A stretch of 39,180 bases of DNA from Flavobacteriales bacterium. GTDB taxonomy: Bacteria > Bacteroidota > Bacteroidia > Flavobacteriales > BACL11. Of this stretch, positions 1,656-11,882 are shown piece after piece (the first letter of the stretch is position 1; every line of letters starts with the position of its first letter). The stretch lies in NCBI GenBank assembly GCA_014381465.1, contig JACNLP010000077.1:1-39180 (forward strand), read 5' to 3'. The notes under the pieces are model-generated. The model was not told where the DNA came from and ran no database searches. It saw only the letters and a program-made list of their open reading frames with translations. A program made the translations under genes and the position numbers.

Positions 1656-2714
1656 GTGAAATCAAAAAAACGAATATTAGTTGCCCCACTAGATTGGGGA
1701 ATTGGGCATGCTACAAGATGCATACCAATAATCAAACAATTAATAGCACATAATTTTGAAGTAATTATTGCTGCAGATGGCAGACCATTACACCTTTTAA
1801 GTACAGAATTCCCTAACTTGGAAATGGTGCGTTTTAGCGGATACAATATAAAATATCCCAAGTATTTACCCATGAGTATTAGTATGCTTTTGCAAACGCC
1901 AAAACTTTTGTGGAGCATAAAAAAAGAAAATACTGCCCTTGCTGAAATCATTAAGGATTATAATATTGATGGCGTAATTTCTGATAATCGTTTTGGATTA
2001 TATTCCAACCAAGTGCCTTGTGTTTTTATTACCCACCAACTGCAAATACAAACGCCTTATTTTACTGATAGTATTCAGGGTTTCAATTACAAATACATCA
2101 ACAAGTATTCTGCTTGCTGGGTAATGGATGATGAGGAAAATAATTTAGCAGGAGAACTTTCCAAACCAAATAGCTTGCCCAACAACACTAAATATATAGG
2201 TGTGCAATCTCGTTTTGAAAAACAAGAAACAATAAAAAAATATGATTTCCTAGCTATTGTTTCAGGGCCTGAACCCCAAAGAACAATTTTAGAAAAAGGA
2301 TTGATAAAAGCATTGAAAAATAGACAAGGAAAATCATTAATTGTATTAGGGAAGCCTGAGTTAAATTCCAAAGAGGAAATAGGGAATTTGAGTATTTACT
2401 CTCATATGAATGCTACTGAACTAAATACTGCAATTCTAGAATCAGAACTTATTATTTGTAGGCCTGGGTATTCCACAGTTATGGATTTAGCAAAGCTTGA
2501 GAAAAAGGCATTTTTCATTCCTACACCAGGACAAACCGAACAAGAATACTTAGCTGATAATTTTAAGCGAAATGGGACTTGTTACTCACAAAATCAAAGT
2601 GATTTTGATTTGGAAGAAGCAATAGAAGAAAGTAAAAATTACTCAGGATTTACAGCATTAAAAACAGCAACAACAAATTGGACTGAATTATTTCGCCTTT
2701 TTGAGGGTGAATGA
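1656..2714 (+). CDS. MurG-like / family 28-type glycosyltransferase of unknown acceptor
   Basis: This 352-residue protein has the two-domain layout of GT-B glycosyltransferases. The N-terminal strand and glycine-rich loop (ILVAPLDWGIGHATR, residues 7-21) resemble the MurG/MGDG-synthase nucleotide-sugar transferases. In the C-terminal half, VSGPEPQRT and CRPGYSTVMDLAKL followed by PTPGQTEQEYLA match the usual donor-binding region. There is no signal peptide, so a cytoplasmic or membrane-peripheral enzyme is likely. The start is GTG at 1656, immediately after a strong -7 element. The last 27 bp overlap the 3' end of the convergent histidine kinase gene. The substrate cannot be assigned: MurG itself is normally found in a cell-wall cluster, and nothing here supports that role. 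Confidence 0.75.
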   Translation: MKSKKRILVAPLDWGIGHATRCIPIIKQLIAHNFEVIIAADGRPLHLLSTEFPNLEMVRFSGYNIKYPKYLPMSISMLLQTPKLLWSIKKENTALAEIIKDYNIDGVISDNRFGLYSNQVPCVFITHQLQIQTPYFTDSIQGFNYKYINKYSACWVMDDEENNLAGELSKPNSLPNNTKYIGVQSRFEKQETIKKYDFLAIVSGPEPQRTILEKGLIKALKNRQGKSLIVLGKPELNSKEEIGNLSIYSHMNATELNTAILESELIICRPGYSTVMDLAKLEKKAFFIPTPGQTEQEYLADNFKRNGTCYSQNQSDFDLEEAIEESKNYSGFTALKTATTNWTELFRLFEGE

Positions 2715-3680
2715 AAAAGTAGAACCTACCCCAACCGTGCTTCTGATATTTAAAGTTTGTTTGTGCGATTCTATAATGTGTTTTACAATAGAAAGCCCTA
2801 GACCTGTACCTCCTTTTTCACGAGAACGACTTTCTTCAACCCTAAAAAATCTTTCAGATAATCTTGGTAAATGGATTTCATCAATTCCTATTCCATCATC
2901 AGAAACCTCAACAAGAATGTTTTCAACCATATCATAAAAACGGATTTTTGTTAAACCGTTTTCATTTCCGTACTTAATAGAATTATCAACCAAATTGGTT
3001 AATACTTGATTGATTTTCATTTTATCCGCTACAACAAAAATAGGACTGTATTCTTTATCAAAAACAAGAGAGATATTGCTTTTCTTTGCCTTATCCTCCA
3101 ATGAGTCTTGAACATTTTTACACAATTCAACTATATCAAATTTTTCAATTTTTAAGTTTTTTTCTTCATGTTCCAAAGTAGAAATACTTTCCAAATCTTC
3201 CACTATGGAAATCATACGCTCCACACTTTTTTGTGTTCTTTGCAAGTACTTTTTATTGATTTGCTCATCTTCAAGAGCCCCCTCTAATAATGTAAGCACA
3301 TAGCCCTGAATGTTGAAAATTGGTGTTTTTAACTCATGTGATACATTCCCTAAAAAATCTCTTCTAAATTTTTCAGTATCTTTTAGATGTTCAATCTCAG
3401 CTTGGCGTTCACTCACCCATTTTTTCACATCTTCTTCTGATGATTCTAAATCAAAATGTTGTTGACTTTTTATCTTCTGGTTTTGAATAATACGATATAA
3501 TGTTTTTATTCTTTTTTCAATGTATTGTTTTATTACAAAATAAGCCAGTAGGAATACTACTATAAAAAGAAATACAAAGGACAGTATTGAAAGAGTTACA
3601 TGAGATATTGCTATGATAAGCCACAAGCAAAGAACTGCAATAAAGGCAATAAAAAATGCTATTTCTTTATTACTTTTCAT
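2688..3680 (-). CDS. phoR: PhoR-type sensor histidine kinase
   Basis: This is a 330-residue membrane histidine kinase, the likely sensor for the adjacent PhoB-type regulator. Two hydrophobic segments (about residues 8-25 and 29-50) form the N-terminal anchor, with almost no extracytoplasmic loop, as in PhoR proteins that sense through the Pst/PhoU complex. The H box is FLGNVSHELKTP with His115. The N box VDNSIKYG lies at 231-238, the G1 box DDGIGID at 261-267 and the G2 box GGTGLGLSIVK at 290-300. No PAS domain is evident between membrane and H box. It overlaps the regulator gene by 11 bp, so the two are translationally coupled. The phosphate role is inferred from its place next to the pst operon; the kinase call is certain. 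Confidence 0.88.
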   Translation of the reverse strand: MKSNKEIAFFIAFIAVLCLWLIIAISHVTLSILSFVFLFIVVFLLAYFVIKQYIEKRIKTLYRIIQNQKIKSQQHFDLESSEEDVKKWVSERQAEIEHLKDTEKFRRDFLGNVSHELKTPIFNIQGYVLTLLEGALEDEQINKKYLQRTQKSVERMISIVEDLESISTLEHEEKNLKIEKFDIVELCKNVQDSLEDKAKKSNISLVFDKEYSPIFVVADKMKINQVLTNLVDNSIKYGNENGLTKIRFYDMVENILVEVSDDGIGIDEIHLPRLSERFFRVEESRSREKGGTGLGLSIVKHIIESHKQTLNIRSTVGVGSTFSFTLKKAK

Positions 3681-4344
3681 TCAATCGGTATCCTACCCCT
3701 TTTATGGTTTCTATAATATCATCACCTAGTTTCTCTCTTAATTTTCTGATGTGAACATCAATAGTTCTATCTCCAATAAATACATCTGCACCCCAAACAG
3801 TGTTCATGATTTCATCACGAGTAAAAACTTTTCCAATCTCAGAAAAAAGCAATTGCAAAAGCTCAAATTCTTTACGAGCAAATTTTAACTCAACCCCATC
3901 TTTTAGCACTTTATATTTATTGGAATCAAGTTCAATCCCTTTAAATGAAAGAATTGAAACTTCTTTTTTTCCTTCCAATCTTCTTAGTAATGACTTTACT
4001 TTACTCAATAAAATTTTTGGTTTTACAGGTTTTGTTATGTAATCATCTGCTCCAGCATCAAGCCCTGCAATCTGAGAATAATCCTCACTTCTTGCAGTTA
4101 AAAAAGTAATAAGAGTTTTACTCAACTCAGGAATTTCTCTAATTTCAGAACAAGCCTCTATCCCATCCATATTGGGCATCATTACATCTAAAATAATTAA
4201 ATGTGGTTGATGTTTTTTAGCTTGTTCAATAGCTATAATACCATCCTCAGCAGTAAAAATTTCATAACCTTCTTTCTTCAAATTATATCCTATAATTTCT
4301 AAGATATCTGGTTCATCATCAACTAATAATATTTTATAACTCAT
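3670..4344 (-). CDS. phoB: PhoB-type response regulator (OmpR family)
   Basis: This is a 224-residue two-domain regulator. The receiver domain (residues 1-120) has the acidic pair D9/D10, phosphoacceptor Asp53 in LIILDVMMPN, the switch residue in LTAR and Lys105 in DYITKPVKP. The C-terminal winged helix (about 130-222) has the OmpR/PhoB layout, including GDRTIDVHIRKLREKLG and the closing IKGVGYRLN. It would bind direct repeats, and 11-bp repeats are indeed present upstream of three nearby genes. It is the first gene of a minus-strand pair with the kinase and is divergent from pstS with a 237-bp regulatory gap. A -7 match lies only 4 nt before the ATG. Regulator family is certain; the phosphate assignment is strong from context. 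Confidence 0.9.
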   Translation of the reverse strand: MSYKILLVDDEPDILEIIGYNLKKEGYEIFTAEDGIIAIEQAKKHQPHLIILDVMMPNMDGIEACSEIREIPELSKTLITFLTARSEDYSQIAGLDAGADDYITKPVKPKILLSKVKSLLRRLEGKKEVSILSFKGIELDSNKYKVLKDGVELKFARKEFELLQLLFSEIGKVFTRDEIMNTVWGADVFIGDRTIDVHIRKLREKLGDDIIETIKGVGYRLNEK

Positions 4345-4348
4345 ACTG

Positions 4349-4356
4349 CAAAAATA
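4349..4356 (-). promoter_or_regulatory. -7 element TATTTTTG ahead of phoB
   Basis: Read on the minus strand, this is an exact TAnnTTTG match ending 4 nt before the phoB ATG (4342-4344). Transcription from it would begin at or next to the start codon. Confidence 0.5.
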
Positions 4357-4391: not shown

Positions 4392-4410
4392 ATTTAACAC
4401 AAAGTTAACA
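4392..4410. promoter_or_regulatory. Candidate Pho box near phoB (two TTAACA repeats 11 bp apart)
   Basis: TTAACA occurs at 4394-4399 and 4405-4410 on the plus strand, exactly 11 bp apart. Because GTTAAC is self-complementary, the minus strand also reads TTAACT and TTAAAT 11 bp apart, so the site could serve phoB. It lies about 40 bp upstream of the phoB -7 element. Autoregulation of phoBR is inferred from this position. Confidence 0.5.
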
Positions 4411-4483: not shown

Positions 4484-4511
4484 TTTACAATTTCTTAACA
4501 CTATCTTAAAT
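4484..4511 (+). promoter_or_regulatory. Candidate Pho box of pstS: three hexamers at 11-bp spacing
   Basis: TTTACA (4484), TTAACA (4495) and TTAAAT (4506) are direct repeats exactly 11 bp apart. They start 59, 48 and 37 bp upstream of the -7 element at 4543. PhoB-family winged-helix proteins are known to bind 11-bp direct repeats, and the same pattern recurs at 8990 and 10836. Confidence 0.7.
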
Positions 4512-4542
4512 TTCTCTTTACTCAACAGCCAATAGTTCGTTC

Positions 4543-4550
4543 TATTTTTG
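4543..4550 (+). promoter_or_regulatory. -7 promoter element of pstS (TATTTTTG)
   Basis: Exact TAnnTTTG match, 31 nt between its end and the pstS ATG. No good -33 element is seen, which fits an activator-dependent promoter. The 19 nt from 4543 are identical to those at the porin promoter (10884). Confidence 0.7.
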
Positions 4551-4581
4551 CCCCATAATTAATCACGAAAATAAAATCAAA

Positions 4582-5529
4582 ATGAAAAAAACAATGAAAA
4601 CATTATTATTTGCAACTGCTACTATATTATTAGTAAGTTGTGGAGGTAGCTCAGAAGAGGCAGCTACAACAAACGAACTAAGTGGTTCAATCAAAATTGA
4701 TGGTTCATCAACAGTTTACCCAATTACTGAGGCAATAGCTGAGGAGTTCAGAGCAGTAGAACCAAAAGTAAAAGTAACAATAGGAGTATCAGGAACAGGA
4801 GGTGGTTTCAAAAAGTTCGGAAGAGGAGAAACGGATATTTCAGATGCTTCAAGACCAATAAAAGACAAAGAAGCAAAAATTTGTGCAGAAAATAATATTA
4901 CTTATGTAGGGTTAACTGTTGCTTATGATGGATTAGCAGTATTAGTAAATCCTGAAAATACTTGGGTAGATTACTTTACTGTAGAGGAATTAAACACAAT
5001 TTGGAATCCATCAGCACAAAACACTATTATGTACTGGGATCAAGTTCGTGAAGGATGGCCACATGAAGAATTACACCTTTTTGGACCTGGAACTGCATCT
5101 GGAACTTATGATTATTTCTCTGAAGCAATTTGCGGAAAGAAAGTAGGAACAAGAGGAGATTACACTGCTTCAGAAGATGACCATGTATTAGTACAAGGAA
5201 TTGCAGGAGACAAGAATGGTTTAGGATTTTTCGGACTGGCTTACTATGAAGAAAATAAAGACAAACTTAGATTGGTTGGGGTTGATAACGGAAATGGAGC
5301 AATTGCACCTACTATGGAAACTGTTGGGAACGGAACTTACGCACCACTTTCTAGACCAATATTTATCTATGTAAATAGTAATGCAAAAACAAGAACGGAA
5401 GTAAGCACATTTGTTTCTTTCTACTTAGATAATGCTGCTGAACTAGTAAAAGATGTTGGTTATATTCCATTACCATCTACTGAGTATGATGCAGAAAAAG
5501 AGAAATTCAACAATTTTTTAAATAACTAA
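4582..5529 (+). CDS. pstS: Phosphate ABC transporter substrate-binding lipoprotein PstS
   Basis: This is the high-affinity phosphate-binding component of the Pst importer. It has 315 residues, with a lipoprotein signal peptide ending in LLVSC and lipidated Cys20, so it would be anchored to a membrane facing the periplasm. The mature protein begins its binding domain with [14 protein letters not shown], the phosphate-loop region of the family. [26 protein letters not shown] and the [15 protein letters not shown] segment carry the Ser/Thr/Gly residues that normally bind the oxyanion. The C-terminal region (YIPLP) is typical. It is the first gene of the pst operon, driven by a promoter with a candidate Pho box, and would be induced by low phosphate. 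The start is well supported by the signal peptide. Confidence 0.95.
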
Positions 5530-5643
5530 ATGGAGAAAACTATAGTAATAATTATGCTAGCTAGCTTTGTGCTATCCGTTTGCTTAATGGTTAAAAAAGA
5601 TAGAAAAGAATACTTTGAAATTTTAAAAAATAGCACAAAATAA
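5530..5643 (+). CDS. Small membrane protein (37 aa) between pstS and pstC
   Basis: This short open frame starts at the base right after the pstS stop codon and encodes MEKTIVIIMLASFVLSVCLM followed by a charged tail rich in Lys, Glu and Arg. The N-terminal 20 residues would form one transmembrane helix. Zero spacing to pstS suggests translational coupling. I do not recognise a family. Many bacterial transporters have single-span micro-proteins as partners, so a modulator of PstSCAB is conceivable, but this is inference. Its last bases overlap the first strand of the RNA leader that follows, so it could instead act as a leader peptide. It may also be a chance open frame. Confidence 0.45.
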   Translation: MEKTIVIIMLASFVLSVCLMVKKDRKEYFEILKNSTK

Positions 5644-5778
5644 TTAGAGGTCTGATTGATTTGTTAGTAGGATAAAGCCCCGAAAATAAATATTCAGATT
5701 CCTAATTGATAAGATGAGTAGGCCTGGGTTAACACAGGTTCAAAGACAAAATACTGTTCCGAAAACTTATCACAATTA
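5642..5778 (+). ncRNA. Structured RNA leader upstream of pstC with mutually exclusive stems
   Basis: The 189-bp gap between the micro-ORF and pstC is highly structured. Stem A pairs 5642-5655 with 5694-5707: 14 positions, with 11 Watson-Crick pairs, two G-U pairs and one mismatch. Stem B pairs 5702-5708 (CTAATTG) with 5773-5779 (CAATTAG) and 5709-5713 (ATAAG) with 5766-5770 (CTTAT). Inside stem B is a hairpin CCTG-8nt-CAGG (5723-5738). Stems A and B both need 5702-5707, so they cannot form together, as in an attenuator or riboswitch. No known riboswitch class was recognised. A simpler role is setting PstS expression above that of the permease genes. Confidence 0.5.
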
Positions 5779-5817
5779 GTAAAGCCGACTGCATTTGCAG
5801 TTCGGATTTTACTTTTT
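5779..5817 (+). terminator. Intrinsic-terminator-like hairpin just before pstC
   Basis: GTAAA (5779-5783) pairs with TTTAC (5808-5812), and CCGACTGC (5785-5792) pairs with the GCAG...CGG strand at 5797-5805 with a one-base bulge, closing a 4-nt loop. A run of five T follows (5813-5817). It ends 15 bp before the pstC ATG, so it would need read-through or antitermination for pstCAB expression. Confidence 0.6.
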
Positions 5818-5832
5818 AAAATAAAAAAGCAA

Positions 5833-6705
5833 ATGAAGAAAGAAAAAATAATAGAAGGATTACTCAAATTCTCAGCCCTTGTAACTATACTTACAACAGT
5901 TGGGATTTTGTATGTTCTACTTTCTGAAAGCATCTCCTTCTTTAGTGAAGTTTCAATTTGGGAATTTATCACTGACAAAGAATGGACTCCCCTTTTTGTA
6001 AACAAACATTTTGGAATAATGCCACTAGTAATGGGAACACTGCTCACTACTTTTATTGCTGTGGCAGTGGCACTTCCTATTGGAATTACAATAGCCATTT
6101 ATTTAAGTGAATATGCACCAAAAAAATTCAAGAAAATTGTAAAACCACTTTTGGAAATACTAGCAGCAGTACCAACTGTTGTTTATGGTTTTTTTGCATT
6201 AATGGTAGTTACTCCATTTTTGCAATCTTTCATTCCTGGAATGTCAGGTTTTAATTCCCTTTCAGCAGGAATTGTAATGGGAATTATGATTATTCCTTAT
6301 GTAAGTTCACTAAGTGAAGATGCGCTTTCAGCAGTGCCAAAATCTTTAAGAAATGCATCTTATGGAATGGGAGCTACAAGGCTGCAAACAGCATTTAAAG
6401 TAATGGTCCCTGCAGCATCTTCAGGTATTATTGTATCGGTAATTTTAGCCTTTTCTCGTGCAATTGGGGAGACTATGATTGTAGCAATAGCAGCAGGGCA
6501 ACAACCAAGATTAACTGCAAACCCATTGGTTCCTGTAGAAACAATTACAGCTTATATTGTGCAAGTAAGTTTGGGAGATGTTGCTCATGGCACATTAGAA
6601 TACAAAACAATATTTGCAGCAGGAATTACTTTATTCATCTTTACATTTATACTTAACAATATTAGTTTTTATATCCGTAAAAAATTCAAAGAGCAATATG
6701 ACTAG
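5833..6705 (+). CDS. pstC: Phosphate ABC transporter permease PstC
   Basis: This is one of two membrane subunits of the Pst importer, 290 residues, with about six predicted transmembrane helices: one near residues 13-33, then segments around 62-90, 108-133, 150-170, 200-225 and 260-280. The cytoplasmic coupling region that contacts PstB is seen in SLRNASYGMGATRLQTAFKVMVP, matching the EAA-loop consensus, and FSRAIGETMIVAIAAGQQP is the conserved permease motif that follows. It lies downstream of the RNA leader and terminator-like hairpin, so its expression may be tuned separately from pstS. The pstA start lies inside its last 8 bp. PstC rather than PstA is assigned by gene order and by the MIVAIAAGQQP motif. 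Confidence 0.94.
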   Translation: MKKEKIIEGLLKFSALVTILTTVGILYVLLSESISFFSEVSIWEFITDKEWTPLFVNKHFGIMPLVMGTLLTTFIAVAVALPIGITIAIYLSEYAPKKFKKIVKPLLEILAAVPTVVYGFFALMVVTPFLQSFIPGMSGFNSLSAGIVMGIMIIPYVSSLSEDALSAVPKSLRNASYGMGATRLQTAFKVMVPAASSGIIVSVILAFSRAIGETMIVAIAAGQQPRLTANPLVPVETITAYIVQVSLGDVAHGTLEYKTIFAAGITLFIFTFILNNISFYIRKKFKEQYD

Positions 6706-7555
6706 AGGGCAAATAAATAGACTAAAAGATCAAGCATTTGCTTATTTTGGTATTTTCTGTACCTTAATTGGTTTAGTAATACTTGCATTTTTTATTGGAA
6801 ATATCTTTTATGATGGTATGACAAGAATTGATTGGGATTTCCTCACAAACTTACCATCACGAAAAGCAGAAAAAGCAGGAATACTTACTGCTTGGGCTGG
6901 TTCAATATGGATTGTGATTTTTACTTTCCTAATTGTAGTTCCCTTAGGAGTTGCAGCAGGAATTTACTTGGAAGAATACGGTAAAAAATCAAAAATAGCA
7001 GAATTATTGGAAGTAAATATTTCTAACTTAGCAGGAGTACCATCTGTAATTTACGGGCTTTTAGGATTAGAAATTTTTGGAAGATTATTTGGAATGGGGA
7101 ATAGTATTTTAGCAGGAAGTGCAACACTTGCTCTGCTTGTTTTACCTATTGTAATTGTAGCAACTCGTGAAGCACTAAAGGCAGTTCCCCCATCAATCAG
7201 AGCTGCATCATTTGGTTTAGGAGCTACAAAATGGCAAACCATTTGGTATCAGGTTTTACCTGCTTCATTTGGGGGAATTTTAACAGGAGTAATTTTAGCA
7301 ATTTCTCGTGCAGTAGGGGAAACTGCCCCACTTATTGTAATTGGTGCTTTGGCTTATGTTCCCTTTACTCCAAGTTCACCAATGGATGAATTTACAGTAC
7401 TTCCAATTCAGATTTTTAATTGGATTTCACGACCACAGCATGAATTTAGCATAAATGCGGCAGCAGCAATTATAGTATTATTACTCATCACATTTGTGAT
7501 GAACGGAATAGCGGTTTATTTCAGAAATAAATGGCAGAAAAAAATAAATTGGTAG
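6698..7555 (+). CDS. pstA: Phosphate ABC transporter permease PstA
   Basis: This is the second Pst membrane subunit, 285 residues from the ATG at 6698. That start overlaps the pstC stop by 8 bp, a typical coupling arrangement. The frame is open further upstream to 6614, but this part lies fully inside pstC and adds residues not usual for PstA. A first transmembrane helix lies near residues 18-42, then about five more. Family motifs include [18 protein letters not shown], the EAA loop [23 protein letters not shown], and [16 protein letters not shown], the last being characteristic of PstA. pstB begins 1 bp after the stop. Confidence 0.94.
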
Positions 7556-7556
7556 T

Positions 7557-8312
7557 ATGGAAAATAAATTAGAAGCAAAAAATGTAAGTGTTTTTTATGG
7601 CGAATTTCAAGCTCTAAATAACATAAATATGAAATTTAAAGAAAATGCAGTTACTGCATTAATCGGACCATCAGGTTGCGGTAAATCAACCTATTTAAGA
7701 CTCTTTAATAGAATGAATGATTATGTAGATTCATTCAGAATGGAAGGAGAAATTTTAGTTGACGGGAATGACATTTACAACAAAGATGTTTTAGTTGATG
7801 AACTCAGAAAAGGAATAGGAATGGTATTTCAAAAACCAAACCCTTTTCCTAAATCTATATTTGAAAATGTAGCTTACGGACTTAAAATTCAAGGAATAAA
7901 GAACAAAGCCGTTTTAAAAAATAGAGTTCGTAAAGCATTGCAACAAGCAGCACTTTGGGATGAAGTTAAAAATGACTTAGACAAATCGGCACTTGAACTA
8001 AGTGGAGGGCAGCAACAAAGAGTTTGCATTGCAAGAGCTTTGGCAGTAGAACCTTCAATAATTTTAATGGATGAACCTACCTCAGCACTCGACCCAATTG
8101 CAACCGCAAAAGTGGAGGAACTCATACATGAATTAAAGAAAGATTACACCATAATCATTGTAACTCATAATATGCAACAAGCAAGTAGAATTTCCGATTA
8201 CACCGCTTTTTTCTATATGGGAGATTTGATTGAATACAATAAAACAGACATTATATTTACTAACCCAGAACACGAAAGAACTCAGAATTATATTACTGGG
8301 CGTTTCGGTTAA
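7557..8312 (+). CDS. pstB: Phosphate ABC transporter ATPase PstB
   Basis: This is the ATP-hydrolysing subunit of the Pst importer, 251 residues, on the cytoplasmic face of the membrane. All ABC ATPase motifs are intact: Walker [10 protein letters not shown] at 37-45, Q-loop Gln92 in [12 protein letters not shown] (the PFPKSI segment is distinctive of PstB), signature LSGGQQQR at 148-155, Walker B IILMDEP at 168-174 with the D-loop SALDP, and switch His204 in VTHNMQQ. The C-terminal ITGRFG is also typical. It follows pstA by 1 bp and precedes phoU by 11 bp, so the genes form one transcription unit. The active importer would be PstS with PstC, PstA and two PstB. Confidence 0.97.
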
Positions 8313-8323
8313 AATCAATAACT

Positions 8324-8986
8324 ATGAATAATTTAGAACAAGAAATTTCAGGACTTAAAAGAGAACTTTTAAAAATGTTCCAACTAGTAGAAAAACAATG
8401 GAGAAAAAGCAGCATTGCTATTTTGGAATTTGATCAAGATATTGCTGAGGAAATTTCCTCCACTGAAAATAGAGTAAACGCAATGGAAATTGCAATTGAT
8501 AGAGAATGTGAGAATATCCTAGCTCTTTTATCTCCTGTTGCAATTGATTTACGCTTTGTGCTTTCTGCCTATAAAATAAATCATGAACTAGAAAGAGTAG
8601 CTGATATTGCTGACAGTATTGCAAATTATGTTTCTAACAATCAAACTGCATATCCTTCAAAAGTAGTAGCTGAATTAAATTTGGAAGACATGTTAAATCA
8701 ACTGCTTTCAATGCTTTCTGATATTTCTGATGCTTTTGAATATGAAGACACAAAAATTGCACGAAAAATTTTCAAAAAGGATAAAAAACTAAACCAATAT
8801 AATGCAGAAGCTACCTCTATAATATTGAATAATATGGATGATTTTGAAAGAGAAAACCTGATGTATTTACTCTCAACTATTCGTAAAATTGAGAGAGCAG
8901 GAGATTCAATAAAAAACATTGGAGAAGAAATTATTTTTCATCAAGAAGCCAGAATAGTCAAACACAAAAAAGCAGACAAAAAATAA
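8324..8986 (+). CDS. phoU: Phosphate signalling protein PhoU
   Basis: This is a 220-residue, all-helical protein with the two repeated three-helix PhoU domains (about residues 5-95 and 110-205). Each has the acidic metal-binding motif pattern: ELERVADIADSIANY in the first repeat and IERAGDSIKNIGEEI in the second. PhoU links the phosphate state of the PstSCAB importer to the PhoR kinase and keeps the Pho response off when phosphate is plentiful. It is the last gene of the pst operon, 11 bp after pstB. The next gene, the Na+/phosphate cotransporter, carries its own promoter starting 4 bp after the phoU stop. The length and layout are standard. Confidence 0.93.
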   Translation: MNNLEQEISGLKRELLKMFQLVEKQWRKSSIAILEFDQDIAEEISSTENRVNAMEIAIDRECENILALLSPVAIDLRFVLSAYKINHELERVADIADSIANYVSNNQTAYPSKVVAELNLEDMLNQLLSMLSDISDAFEYEDTKIARKIFKKDKKLNQYNAEATSIILNNMDDFERENLMYLLSTIRKIERAGDSIKNIGEEIIFHQEARIVKHKKADKK

Positions 8987-8989
8987 GTC

Positions 8990-9017
8990 TTAACAATTCC
9001 TTAACATTGCGATAACA
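8990..9017 (+). promoter_or_regulatory. Candidate Pho box of the Na+/Pi cotransporter gene
   Basis: TTAACA (8990), TTAACA (9001) and ATAACA (9012) are direct repeats exactly 11 bp apart, starting 37, 26 and 15 bp upstream of the -7 element at 9027. The phase relative to the -7 element is the same as at pstS and the porin. Confidence 0.7.
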
Positions 9018-9026
9018 TTTAAAATA

Positions 9027-9034
9027 TATTTTTG
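9027..9034 (+). promoter_or_regulatory. -7 promoter element of the Na+/Pi cotransporter gene (TATTTTTG)
   Basis: Exact TAnnTTTG match 23 nt before the ATG at 9058. It shows that the cotransporter can be transcribed independently of the pst operon. Confidence 0.65.
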
Positions 9035-9057
9035 CAGAAATTTTAAAAATATAAAAA

Positions 9058-10767
9058 ATGGAATTCGGAATTTACGAACTATTAAGATTAATTGGAGCAC
9101 TTGGTTTCTTCATCTATGGGATGAAAGTAATGAGTGATGGAATCCAGAAAGCAGGAGGAAGCAAAATGCGTCAAATACTAGGAGGAATGACTTCTAATAG
9201 ATACTTTGGTGTAATGACAGGTTTCTTAATTACTGCAATTGTACAATCATCATCAGCAACTACAGTAATGACGGTAAGTTTTGTAAATGCAGGATTACTT
9301 ACTTTAGTAGAATCGGCAGGGGTAATGATGGGAGCCAATATTGGAACAACTGTTACTGCTTGGATTATTTCTATATTAGGGTTTAAAGTAAAAATGTCAG
9401 CTATTGCATTACCAATTATTGCTTTTGGTATGCCAATGATGTTTGCCAGAAAAACTAAAACTAAAAACTGGGGAGAATTCTTAGTTGGTTTTGCACTTTT
9501 ATTTATCGGACTTTCTGAGTTAAAACATGCAGTTCCTGATGTAAAGAACAACCCAGAAATATTAAACTTTTTAGCTGGTTTTGCTGATATTTCATTTTTA
9601 TCAAGATTAATGTTTGTTGGTGTAGGTACACTTTTAACTATTGTAGTTCAATCTTCTACTGCAGCAATGGCACTTACTTTAGTACTTTGTAATACTGGAG
9701 TAATTCCTTTTGAAGTTGCAGCAGCAATGGTATTAGGTGAAAATATAGGGACAACAATTACTGCAGAACTTGCATCATTAGTAGGAAATGTACATGCTAA
9801 GCGTTCTGCAAGAATACATTCCATGTTCAATATTATTGGGGTTACTTGGATGTTGATTTTAATGCCTTACGCACTTGATATTGTTAATTATTTAGTGTTA
9901 AATTATACTGATATGATTTCACCTTATACTCCTGTAAATGAGTGGGGAGACAACATGTCTCCAGTACCGATTGCCTTATCATTTTTCCACACAGGGTTTA
10001 ATGCATTAAATGTACTTTTACTTATTTGGTTTGTACCTGCACTAGTAAGAGTTGCGGAAAAATCAGTTAAATCACAAGGGGATATGGATGAAAAATTTCA
10101 CTTGGAACATATCGGTACAGGGCTTATGCAAACAGCTGAACTTTCAGTATTAGAAGCAAATAAAGAAGTAGCTAAATTTGGGGAAATTACTAGCCGATTA
10201 CTCGATATGATTCCTGAATTATTAAAGGAAACTGATGATAAAAAATTTGGCAAACAAATGGCTCGCATCCGTAAGTATGAAGATATTACTGATAGAATGG
10301 AGGTGGAAATTGCTGATTACCTAGCAAAAGCATCTCAAGGTGAAATGTCTGATTCTGCTTCCATTAAAGTTAGAAGTATGATTTCAATGATTAACGATAT
10401 GGAAAGAATTGGAGATATTTGCTATCAAATGTCAATTTCAGTAGAGCGTAAAAACGAGCAGAAAGCGTACTTTACTCCTGAACTAAGAGAAAGTCTTGAC
10501 CAAATGATTACTGAAGTTCAAAAAGCAATGGTTATTATGAATAAAAACCTAGAATCTTCTTACTCTCAAGTTACAATTACTGATGCTAATGAGGCTGAAA
10601 TAATCATCAATAAGGTGAGAAATAAGTTGAGAAAAACTTACTTACAGAAAATTGAAAAAGGAGAAGTGAAAATGCAAACTGCTATGATTTACAACAATAT
10701 GATACACTCATTAGAAAAAGTGGGTGATCATATTTTCAATATTACTGAAGCAATTACAGGAAATTAA
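9058..10767 (+). CDS. Na+/phosphate cotransporter with C-terminal PhoU domain (NptA/YjbB type)
   Basis: This 569-residue protein has two parts. Residues 1-330 are an Na+/Pi-cotransporter (SLC34-like) membrane domain with two inverted QSS repeats: AIVQSSSATTVMT around residue 65 and IVVQSSTAAMALT around 202, each followed by a GxNIGTT motif (MGANIGTTVTAWI and LGENIGTTITAEL). Residues from about 360 form a helical PhoU-like domain (NDMERIGDICYQ and LEKVGDHIFNI). The protein would move phosphate across the inner membrane in a sodium-coupled way; in some bacteria family members export phosphate. It sits directly behind phoU with its own Pho-box promoter and is followed by a strong terminator. Direction of transport cannot be read from the sequence. 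Confidence 0.9.
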   Translation: MEFGIYELLRLIGALGFFIYGMKVMSDGIQKAGGSKMRQILGGMTSNRYFGVMTGFLITAIVQSSSATTVMTVSFVNAGLLTLVESAGVMMGANIGTTVTAWIISILGFKVKMSAIALPIIAFGMPMMFARKTKTKNWGEFLVGFALLFIGLSELKHAVPDVKNNPEILNFLAGFADISFLSRLMFVGVGTLLTIVVQSSTAAMALTLVLCNTGVIPFEVAAAMVLGENIGTTITAELASLVGNVHAKRSARIHSMFNIIGVTWMLILMPYALDIVNYLVLNYTDMISPYTPVNEWGDNMSPVPIALSFFHTGFNALNVLLLIWFVPALVRVAEKSVKSQGDMDEKFHLEHIGTGLMQTAELSVLEANKEVAKFGEITSRLLDMIPELLKETDDKKFGKQMARIRKYEDITDRMEVEIADYLAKASQGEMSDSASIKVRSMISMINDMERIGDICYQMSISVERKNEQKAYFTPELRESLDQMITEVQKAMVIMNKNLESSYSQVTITDANEAEIIINKVRNKLRKTYLQKIEKGEVKMQTAMIYNNMIHSLEKVGDHIFNITEAITGN

Positions 10768-10775
10768 TAAAGGTA

Positions 10776-10811
10776 AAAACTAGTGTACCAAAAGTTACAC
10801 TAGTTTTTTTT
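10776..10811 (+). terminator. Intrinsic terminator after the Na+/Pi cotransporter gene
   Basis: AAACTAGTGTA and TACACTAGTTT form an 11-bp stem closing an 8-nt loop, followed by a T run through 10811. It separates the cotransporter from the porin. Confidence 0.85.
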
Positions 10812-10835
10812 AAAGGCCATTTATTTGCAACATAA

Positions 10836-10863
10836 TTAACTTTAACTTAACACAAACTTAACA
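10836..10863 (+). promoter_or_regulatory. Candidate Pho box of the porin gene
   Basis: TTAACT (10836), TTAACA (10847) and TTAACA (10858) are direct repeats exactly 11 bp apart, starting 48, 37 and 26 bp upstream of the -7 element at 10884. This matches the geometry at pstS and at the cotransporter gene. Confidence 0.7.
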
Positions 10864-10883
10864 CGAGTACTTTTAGCTGTTGT

Positions 10884-10891
10884 TATTTTTG
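10884..10891 (+). promoter_or_regulatory. -7 promoter element of the porin gene (TATTTTTG)
   Basis: Exact TAnnTTTG match, with 31 nt between its end and the ATG, the same spacing as at pstS. The 19 nt from 10884 are identical to the pstS promoter from 4543. Confidence 0.7.
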
Positions 10892-10922
10892 CCCCATAAT
10901 TATTAACTTAAAAAATATTAAA

Positions 10923-11882
10923 ATGAAAAAAACAATTTTAGCACTTAGTGCTGCACTTTTAACAGTAATCTCTGTTAATGCTCAAGAAGGAAAACCTTCA
11001 GTAAAAATCTTCTCAAACTTCAACTATGATTTATCAGCTGAAGAAGGAGAAAATGCTTTTAAAGCATTTGAAATTAAAAGATCTTACCTAGGTTATTCTT
11101 ACAAATTTGATGAGAAATTCTCAACAAAAATAACTTTTGATGTTGGTAGTAATGATGGAGGGTCAGCTTATACTGCTTATTTAAAAGTAGCTACTTTACA
11201 ATGGAAAGCTACTGATAACTTAACTTTGAATATTGGACAACAAGGAGTAAAAAACTTTAAGTTTATGGAAAAAGCTTGGGGGAAAAGATACATTGCAAAA
11301 TCTGCACAAGATAAATACAAATGGTCAAGTTCATCTGACCAAGGTGTAACGGCTGACTATAAATTATCTGATAAATTAAGCTTTGATGCTCAAGTATTAA
11401 ATGGTGAAGGATATAAAAAATCACAAGATAATACTGGATTAATGAGAGGTGGTTTAGGTATGACATATAAAGCAATGGACAACTTATCTTTAAGATTACA
11501 TCATGATATTACTCCAAGAGCTACTTATACTGAAAATGATGCATCACAAAGCATTACTACTATTGCTTTTGCTTATAGTGGGAACAACTTTACTTTAGGT
11601 GGAGAGAAGAACTTAATGAAAAATGTAGGGAATGTTTTAGATGCAGAGAATGACATGATGAGTGTATATGGCGCATATAACTTAACAGACAAATACACTT
11701 TGTTTGCTAGATATGATGATGCTTCAGAAACTGCTAAAGCTGGAACTTATACAGTTTATGGAATTGAAAGACAAATGACTAAAGGAGTTACTGTGGCTTT
11801 AAATATGCAATCATGGACAGATGCTGCTGAGGGATCAGAAGCTGAAAATACTTTATACTTAAATTTAGAATACAAGTTTTAA
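10923..11882 (+). CDS. Outer-membrane porin, probably phosphate-induced
   Basis: This 319-residue protein has a cleavable signal peptide (MKKTILALSAALLTVISVNA, cut before Gln21). The mature part alternates amphipathic beta strands, with many aromatic and Gly residues and a C-terminal strand ending in NLEYKF, the terminal aromatic expected of outer-membrane beta barrels. Segments such as FEIKRSYLGYSYKFDEKFSTKITFDVG and YTVYGIERQMTKGVTVALNMQSW are typical porin strands and turns. The promoter carries three Pho-box-like repeats, and the gene directly follows the phosphate transport genes, so phosphate or phosphorylated-solute uptake across the outer membrane is the best inference. It may relate to the OprP/OprO porin family, but the sequence is short for that family and I cannot confirm it. 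Confidence 0.8.
   Translation: MKKTILALSAALLTVISVNAQEGKPSVKIFSNFNYDLSAEEGENAFKAFEIKRSYLGYSYKFDEKFSTKITFDVGSNDGGSAYTAYLKVATLQWKATDNLTLNIGQQGVKNFKFMEKAWGKRYIAKSAQDKYKWSSSSDQGVTADYKLSDKLSFDAQVLNGEGYKKSQDNTGLMRGGLGMTYKAMDNLSLRLHHDITPRATYTENDASQSITTIAFAYSGNNFTLGGEKNLMKNVGNVLDAENDMMSVYGAYNLTDKYTLFARYDDASETAKAGTYTVYGIERQMTKGVTVALNMQSWTDAAEGSEAENTLYLNLEYKF

Follow-up and report, generated by a model that had tools for sequence, protein, structure and literature searches.

A TTAACA-type 11-bp repeat in fixed register to the −7 element as a candidate Pho box of Bacteroidota

We analysed a stretch of 39,180 nucleotides from Flavobacteriales bacterium (BACL11; assembly GCA_014381465.1, contig JACNLP010000077.1, positions 1-39,180), hereafter the window, which carries a phosphate locus with the pst genes and an adjacent phoB-type response regulator gene. 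Three promoters of this locus, those of pstS, of a Na+/phosphate (Na+/Pi) cotransporter gene and of a porin gene, each hold three TTAACA-like hexamers exactly 11 bp apart, and all nine hexamers keep one helical register to the −7 element. The operator at these promoters is real, conserved and phase-locked. Judging from sequence comparison, the repeats very probably constitute a Pho box, that is, the operator of the neighbouring PhoB-type regulator. The elements on which this proposal is based are the following.

4484..4511, plus strand, candidate Pho box of pstS, TTTACA/TTAACA/TTAAAT, with repeat starts at 4484, 4495 and 4506
4543..4550, plus strand, −7 element TATTTTTG of pstS, of the form TAnnTTTG
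8990..9017, plus strand, candidate Pho box of the Na+/Pi cotransporter gene, TTAACA/TTAACA/ATAACA, with starts at 8990, 9001 and 9012
9027..9034, plus strand, −7 element TATTTTTG of the Na+/Pi cotransporter gene
10836..10863, plus strand, candidate Pho box of the porin gene, TTAACT/TTAACA/TTAACA, with starts at 10836, 10847 and 10858
10884..10891, plus strand, −7 element TATTTTTG of the porin gene
4394..4410, plus strand, exact dimer TTAACAcaaagTTAACA between phoB and pstS, a candidate phoB autoregulation site
4349..4356, minus strand, −7-like TATTTTTG ahead of the divergent phoB gene, identified by inspection of the sequence

The −7 elements follow TAnnTTTG, described as the flavobacterial sigma-A −7 consensus (PMC9723704). 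Measured from first base to first base, the repeats lie 59/48/37 bp (pstS), 37/26/15 bp (Na+/Pi) and 48/37/26 bp (porin) from this element, and their mismatches to TTAACA number 1, 0, 2; 0, 0, 1; and 1, 0, 0, respectively. The nine hexamers, three −7 elements and nine distances had been reported in a sequence-only reading of the window, and re-reading and scripts showed every coordinate to be exact. Its gene identities (pstS, Na+/Pi cotransporter, porin and an adjacent PhoB-type regulator) were upheld by Pfam and NCBIfam, with phoB and phoR below their equivalog cut-offs. That reading did not include the exact dimer at 4394, one of the three in the genome, which sits 38-54 bp upstream of the −7-like element of phoB in the opposite orientation and is kept in two relatives (L016, L017). 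A scan of the window for three hexamers 11 bp apart with at most four mismatches (at most two per hexamer) and TAnnTTTG within 85 bp returned these three arrays only; two reverse-strand readings of the pstS array stay within the mismatch limit but have no −7 element. The pstS slots 59/48/37 recur in five relatives (L016, L017, L020, L021 and L023), while the Na+/Pi box is kept in L115 and the porin box in L132.

Throughout the own genome (1,976,464 bp), exact TTAACAN5TTAACA occurs at 3 places, all of them within the phosphate locus, and the reversed control at 2. This confinement is a first reason to regard the repeats as a PhoB operator. With at most three mismatches the triple repeat is found at 11 places against 17 for the reversed control; 5 of them, including the pstS array read on its reverse strand, belong to the phosphate locus and the other 6 do not, so that outside the locus there is no excess over chance. 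A scan with a TTAAMA-type repeat had been proposed for this genome; run in the similar form TTWAMA-N5-TTWAMA, it did not discriminate, as the 90 places found are at chance level (77 in the control). We picked by hand six of the 86 TTWAMA places outside the locus (L273–L278): none is followed by TAnnTTTG at a suitable distance, and four are located inside open frames. This chance-level count, together with the AT-richness of the windows, speaks for a chance pattern of AT-rich DNA or for a UP-element-like curvature near promoters, an explanation which the register described below makes extremely improbable.

To follow the repeat in orthologous loci, we compiled four sets of upstream regions: 12 from pstS relatives, window included (match in 13 of 60 genomes), 14 from Na+/Pi orthologues (15 of 60), 25 from porin orthologues (31 of 60) and, phylum-wide, 27 from pstS matches of at least 39% identity (match in 191 of 296 genomes). 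The last set comprises 27 of the 28 such places besides that of the window, the second of G413 being left out. Some genomes contribute to more than one set; the first three all include the own genome and that of its close relative G012. Seven weak or partial pstS matches (L027–L033) and three C-terminal pieces of the Na+/Pi gene (L124, L127, L130) were set aside, as were, for the porin, L155, L157–L160, two places without a locus, and L141, whose upstream DNA extends for about 50 bp only.

The last 220 bp upstream were scanned blindly with all 4,096 hexamers at 19 spacings (7–25). At one mismatch or fewer, TTAACA at 11 bp ranks first in all four sets, with 8/12 pstS relatives, 5/14 Na+/Pi, 11/25 porin and 11/27 phylum-wide pstS upstreams. 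Allowing two mismatches raises these counts to 11/12, 7/14, 16/25 and 15/27, and the word is then tied first in the pstS relatives and not first in the other three sets. A second scan covered the intergenic DNA of PstB loci in named genomes at spacings 7–16 (60 of 80 loci, the rest belonging to other phyla). The positive control was recovered in Gammaproteobacteria (TGTCAT at 11 bp in 12/25 loci, CTGTCA in 11/25). Bacteroidota loci carry TTAACA at 11 bp in 9/14 cases and CTGTCA in 0/14; in Firmicutes, TTTACA at 11 bp is joint first with 7/11, level with its shift TTTTAC, and the ten alphaproteobacterial loci gave no 11-bp word in this hexamer scan. Two general features of Pho boxes are present here: a core of 6–8 bp directly repeated at least twice with an 11-bp period, and a location in promoters of pst and other phosphate-acquisition genes that is conserved in orthologues, though not universally. 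The earlier proposal of a Pho box on an 11-bp lattice is supported by these comparative data, since the repeat recurs in the same phase upstream of pstS, Na+/Pi cotransporter and porin orthologues.

We define phase as the distance from the repeat start to the first base of TAnnTTTG, modulo 11. For boxes with at most two mismatches and TAnnTTTG 20–75 bp downstream (n=25), the phase is 4 in 18 promoters, 3 in 6 and 5 in 1. The remaining 25 of 50 boxed promoters, whose chosen box had no −7 element at such a distance, were excluded from this count; among them is the window pstS promoter, whose best-scoring dimer is that at 4394. A box-free count gives the same picture: in 41 promoters with TAnnTTTG 15–80 bp before the start codon, hexamers matching TTAACA in at least five of six letters pile up at 26, 37, 48 and 59 bp (14, 11, 16 and 12 promoters), with 3 promoters at 15 bp and 2 at 70 bp. 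Hence the 37-bp position, singled out earlier as shared, is indeed common to all three window promoters but has no special status, being one of four common slots; likewise, the proposed 15+11n lattice keeps its phase in other promoters, whereas slot 15 itself is rare (3/41).

The periodicity is specific to 11 bp: this period has a maximum-to-mean ratio of 5.6, and every other one between 7 and 16 stays at 1.6–2.9. The phase count of TTAACA (58) comes first among its 60 letter permutations. When the own genome and G012 are removed, the remaining 35 promoters have 41 hexamers in phase 4, 19 in phase 3 and 1–6 in each other phase; within slots 25–59, a phase-4 hexamer is present in 19/35 and a phase-3 hexamer in 9/35. 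Randomly jittering the −7 position 5,000 times never gave a count as high as 41. Orthologues share kinship, so these statistics are not strict probabilities; nevertheless, they stand against a chance or curvature origin of the pattern.

The pstS and porin promoters share 19 identical bases, TATTTTTGCCCCATAATTA, from the −7 element onward (4543-4561 and 10884-10902), which suggests a duplicated core promoter or a common transcript start. These two core promoters may be of common ancestry, and they are therefore not fully independent evidence for the register. Taken further, the shared block would mean that the register was inherited with a copied promoter and has no function. Against this, the arrays of the two promoters are offset from each other by exactly 11 bp (59/48/37 in pstS, 48/37/26 in the porin gene), and the register is kept in the Na+/Pi promoter, which has no shared block, and in promoters of other genomes. 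This explanation is largely refuted, and we give it very little probability.

An out-of-sample class of promoters came from a gene which we call gene X. In many relatives, mostly without a close pstS, the porin gene follows gene X and the box lies about 155–350 bp upstream of X. Gene X was found in 21 of 60 genomes (leaving out a second piece in G013, L297), with no match in the own genome. Of its 450-bp upstreams, 18 of 21 hold a dimer at 11 bp with at most one mismatch; the remaining spacings between 7 and 16 score 0–2 of 21 apiece, and the reversed word at 11 bp scores 0 of 21. Where a box and a −7 element lie 10–75 bp apart (15 pairs in 13 upstreams), the phase is always 4 (12 pairs) or 3 (3 pairs). 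The first rank of TTAACA in four sets, the fixed register and this out-of-sample result together are our second reason for proposing a PhoB operator.

The protein itself (e.g. L279:1501-2694) is a membrane protein of about 380–400 aa, in several genomes encoded divergently from phoB. It carries PVSTT and PMSTT motifs, which we take to be reminiscent of PiT transporters. No Pfam or NCBIfam model matched above its cut-off (Pfam PHO4 reached E 0.014 in 2 of 11 members only), no relative was found in the PDB, and the predicted structure, with a mean predicted local distance difference test score (pLDDT) of 51, was rejected as a basis for fold searches. Gene X is a candidate divergent phosphate transporter family, its function being a guess; the box thus points to a transporter-like family lacking annotation.

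We also searched 395 genomes of the order, irrespective of genes, for an exact dimer with TAnnTTTG downstream; 142 genomes gave matches, compared to 15 for the reversed pattern (table counted by eye). Among the 150 matches listed, phases 3, 4, 5 and 6 hold 31, 76, 20 and 6, with 17 at the seven other phases, so that 127 are at phases 3–5. For clustering we used 97 of the 150; the other 53, chiefly of genus g17, were omitted by eye as near-duplicates, and their coordinates place 21 in phase 3, 29 in phase 4, 1 in phase 5 and 2 in phase 6. The 97 fall into 77 groups, 36 of them in phase 4 (7.5 expected), 14 in phase 5 and 9 in phase 3. Within the own family, the matches listed comprise 26 rows for 24 distinct sites. 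The genes at 22 of the 24 are phoB, pstS, gene X, Na+/Pi or porin genes, often divergent from phoB, and these sites are without exception in phases 3–5; the two sites not at such genes are in G010 (phase 0) and G007 (phase 4). As a separate observation, the listed genomes of family f16, mostly 0.2–0.6 Mb and endosymbiont-like, show no match of box and promoter in the table, as judged by eye.

The Na+/Pi box also tracks the regulator. A box with at most two mismatches near the start is found in 7 of 9 genomes having a PhoB at least 50% identical and in 0 of 5 without one (Fisher p 0.021, for a grouping chosen after the data were seen). This association and the 22 of 24 family sites among the matches listed form the third reason for our proposal.

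The fourth reason comes from wet-lab data in other species, cited here from the accessible text of each study. In B. fragilis, PhoB binds a 512-bp fragment of the pstC promoter and is required for pst expression, and that text maps no binding site within the fragment (PMC3547664). At low phosphate, the B. fragilis porin O gene BF0375 changes by +3.55 in the wild type and by −2.70 in the phoB mutant (PMC3547664). F. johnsoniae induces phoB and a PF04101 glycosyltransferase gene of its PhoBR cluster at low phosphate (PMC8115612); low-phosphate regulons have been measured in both species, with no operator mapped in the accessible texts (PMC8115612, PMC3547664). For the flavobacterial R. anatipestifer, DNA affinity purification sequencing of PhoP gave 583 peaks and a motif with TTTAACA as most conserved bases, electrophoretic mobility shift assays were positive in vitro for promoters including its own, and PhoP/PhoR is reported to be upregulated under phosphate starvation (PMC9603813). 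By analogy, this PhoP provides the nearest direct binding evidence.

Based on this evidence, we propose the following mechanism. Phosphate limitation would lead PhoR to phosphorylate PhoB. Tandem PhoB protomers would then bind the TTAACA half-sites head-to-tail, one every 11 bp on a single helix face, a mode of binding that we infer from E. coli PhoB (PMC4415409). Repeats of the array start 26, 37, 48 or 59 bp, in some promoters one base less, from the sigma-A −7 element, and owing to this fixed register we propose that bound PhoB always faces RNA polymerase alike. PhoB would activate pstSCAB-phoU, and probably the porin gene and phoB too. The sign is less sure for the Na+/Pi gene, which may be activated or repressed: its promoter is the only one of the three in the window whose array reaches slot 15, so the third repeat lies within the core promoter, and by analogy to B. 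fragilis PhoB could be a repressor there. Together, box and register rule would make Pho regulons of Bacteroidota predictable, uncultured genomes included, and the register rule allows a direct test of the contact between response regulator and RNA polymerase at the unusual promoter of Bacteroidota.

Several results weigh against this proposal. The window regulator has PhoB (TIGR02154) as its best NCBIfam model, with 218 bits, short of the equivalog cut-off of 296. Among the phylum-wide pstS upstreams, 12 of 27 lack even a dimer with two mismatches, and so do, as to the box, 2 of the 9 Na+/Pi promoters in PhoB-bearing genomes. Upstream of PhoX-family genes, tried as an independent target, a dimer at 11 bp with at most one mismatch is present in only 6 of 30 cases, all of one genus (g20). 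At low phosphate, a second B. fragilis porin O gene, BF2289, is down 3.16-fold and the Na+-dependent phosphate transporter gene BF4351 is down 101-fold in a PhoB-dependent manner (PMC3547664), and in F. johnsoniae no induction was seen for OprP, encoded in the PhoBR cluster (−1.3, p 0.25; PMC8115612). The R. anatipestifer authors likened their motif to that of ArcA and emphasised aerotolerance, and the main text of that article does not contain 'PstS', '11-bp', 'direct repeat' or 'Pho regulon' (PMC9603813). Beyond the own family, only one of eight loci from the order search (L321–L328) is at a phosphate gene, the Na+/Pi gene of L321 (G059), the other seven not being recognisably phosphate genes. 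Finally, five genomes of four families carry the box at 59 bp, in phase 4, ahead of a DUF1573-type gene that has another response regulator nearby.

L333:2284-2350, box of a DUF1573-type gene
L334:2274-2340, box of a DUF1573-type gene
L335-L337, three further loci with such boxes

Pfam confirmed the DUF1573 assignment for one of these five genes. The one nearby regulator that was tested has RprY as its best model (251 bits, cut-off 370), and the open reading frame between it and the DUF1573-type gene is presumably a kinase. Such loci, and the varied genes adjoining the sites outside the own family, would be expected if the box were a generic OmpR/PhoB-family operator, real and phase-locked but read by different or several regulators, for instance RprY-like ones, and not mainly by the neighbouring PhoB. 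We consider this unlikely for the window, given that exact dimers of the own genome are confined to the phoB/pst/Na+/Pi/porin locus, that the family sites listed are at phosphate-type genes with many divergent from phoB, and that Na+/Pi promoters have no box where a close PhoB is absent. Specificity of the box to the phosphate regulon is seen in the own genome and for the most part in the own family, but not across the order.

Array and register look like a wider OmpR/PhoB-family device. It is plausible, though we put it forward tentatively, that a Flavobacteriales-wide promoter code exists in which regulators of this family (PhoB, RprY-like) share a TTAACA 11-bp array starting only in slots about 26/37/48/59 bp, ±1, before the sigma-A TAnnTTTG. 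If so, conservation would act on the helical register with respect to the polymerase and not on absolute distance, and regulated promoters could be read from sequence alone across the order. This general register rule is the more interesting part of the finding. We also compared recognition helices. RTIDVH(I/V)R(K/R)(L/I)R is present in regulators of nine relatives' loci and in five PhoB proteins of other families, ERTVDVHIRRLR in gammaproteobacterial PhoB (found in 5 of 25 loci), and GRS(L/M)DVFIS(R/K)LR in the five regulators near DUF1573-type genes. Since two different helices go with the same core, the helix was rejected as a marker and no residue is assigned to specificity.

For the candidate Pho box proposed here, the TTAACA-type core itself is already known among bacteria. 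The Bacillus subtilis PhoP box consists of TTAACA-like repeats with a period of about 11 bp. Our core is akin to it, as is the TTTACA at 11 bp of the Firmicutes PstB loci scanned here, and the TAnnTTTG register is not applicable to that box. Both the TTAACA-like and the CTTAACCT-like core at 11 bp are therefore matched here, the Bacillus consensus being taken as general background. The second form is that of the cyanobacterial SphR box, in which three 8-bp repeats CTTAACCT with 3-bp linkers give an 11-bp period and a CTTAAC core (PMC1906773). As in CTTAAC, a C precedes 6 of the 9 window hexamers (4495, 4506, 8990, 9001, 10847 and 10858); unlike in SphR, where C follows TTAAC, 7 of the 9 end in CA, and SphR belongs to another phylum and promoter type. 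The accessible text on the E. coli Pho box describes, likewise, 11-bp direct repeats at pst promoters, a PhoB-type regulator and a fixed distance to the promoter (PMC4415409, PMC1906773). Its core is CTGTCA instead of TTAACA and is that of none of the 14 Bacteroidota PstB loci. The earlier statement that the core differs from that of E. coli therefore stands, with the addition that it resembles those of SphR, of Firmicutes and of flavobacterial R. anatipestifer PhoP, whose motif is TTTAACA (PMC9603813). The E. coli ArcA operator, bound by a redox regulator of the OmpR/PhoB family, is a similar motif according to the same source (PMC9603813).

In gammaproteobacterial loci, TATAAT-like hexamers are most frequent 17 bp downstream of the start of the last CTGTCA repeat, a weak peak from 26 clusters, some of them spurious. 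Measured against this weak yardstick, the register there is 17+11n (phase 6), compared to 15+11n (phase 4, some 3) in slots 26–59 here. Bioinformatically assigned Pho boxes are shown for plcP clusters of several groups in a marine study (PMC4796936, accessible text). Our literature search, thin on subscription journals, turned up no account of either the sequence or the register of a Pho box in Bacteroidota, and the grammar of four phase-locked slots before their −7 element is apparently new.

The genes of the locus are as follows.

1656-2714, glycosyltransferase (PF04101), adjoining phoR
2688..3680, minus strand, phoR-type histidine kinase (Pfam HisKA, HATPase_c)
3670..4344, minus strand, phoB-type response regulator with receiver and winged helix (Pfam PF00072, PF00486)
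4582..5529, plus strand, pstS (TIGR02136 above cut-off)
5833..6705, plus strand, pstC (TIGR02138 above cut-off)
6698..7555, plus strand, pstA (TIGR00974 above cut-off)
7557..8312, plus strand, pstB (TIGR00972 above cut-off)
8324..8986, plus strand, phoU (TIGR02135 above cut-off)
9058..10767, plus strand, Na+/Pi cotransporter with a C-terminal PhoU-like domain (PF02690, PF01895; TIGR00704 above cut-off)
10923..11882, plus strand, outer-membrane beta-barrel porin (PF07642 BBP2, just at cut-off with 26.2 bits)

The top NCBIfam models of the phoR-type kinase are PnpS and PhoR, both below cut-off. The glycosyltransferase resembles the one that F. johnsoniae induces at low phosphate from its PhoBR cluster, and no phase-4 box was seen by eye upstream of its gene (1656-2714). 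An Rfam search of the window, pstS–pstC gap included, gave no match at gathering score. The intergenic RNA between pstS and pstC (5644-5832) is more stably folded than shuffled sequences (z −3.3); this gap has an extra stretch of more than 100 nt in the window and in G012, and in relatives a short terminator-like hairpin can be seen by eye between the two genes.

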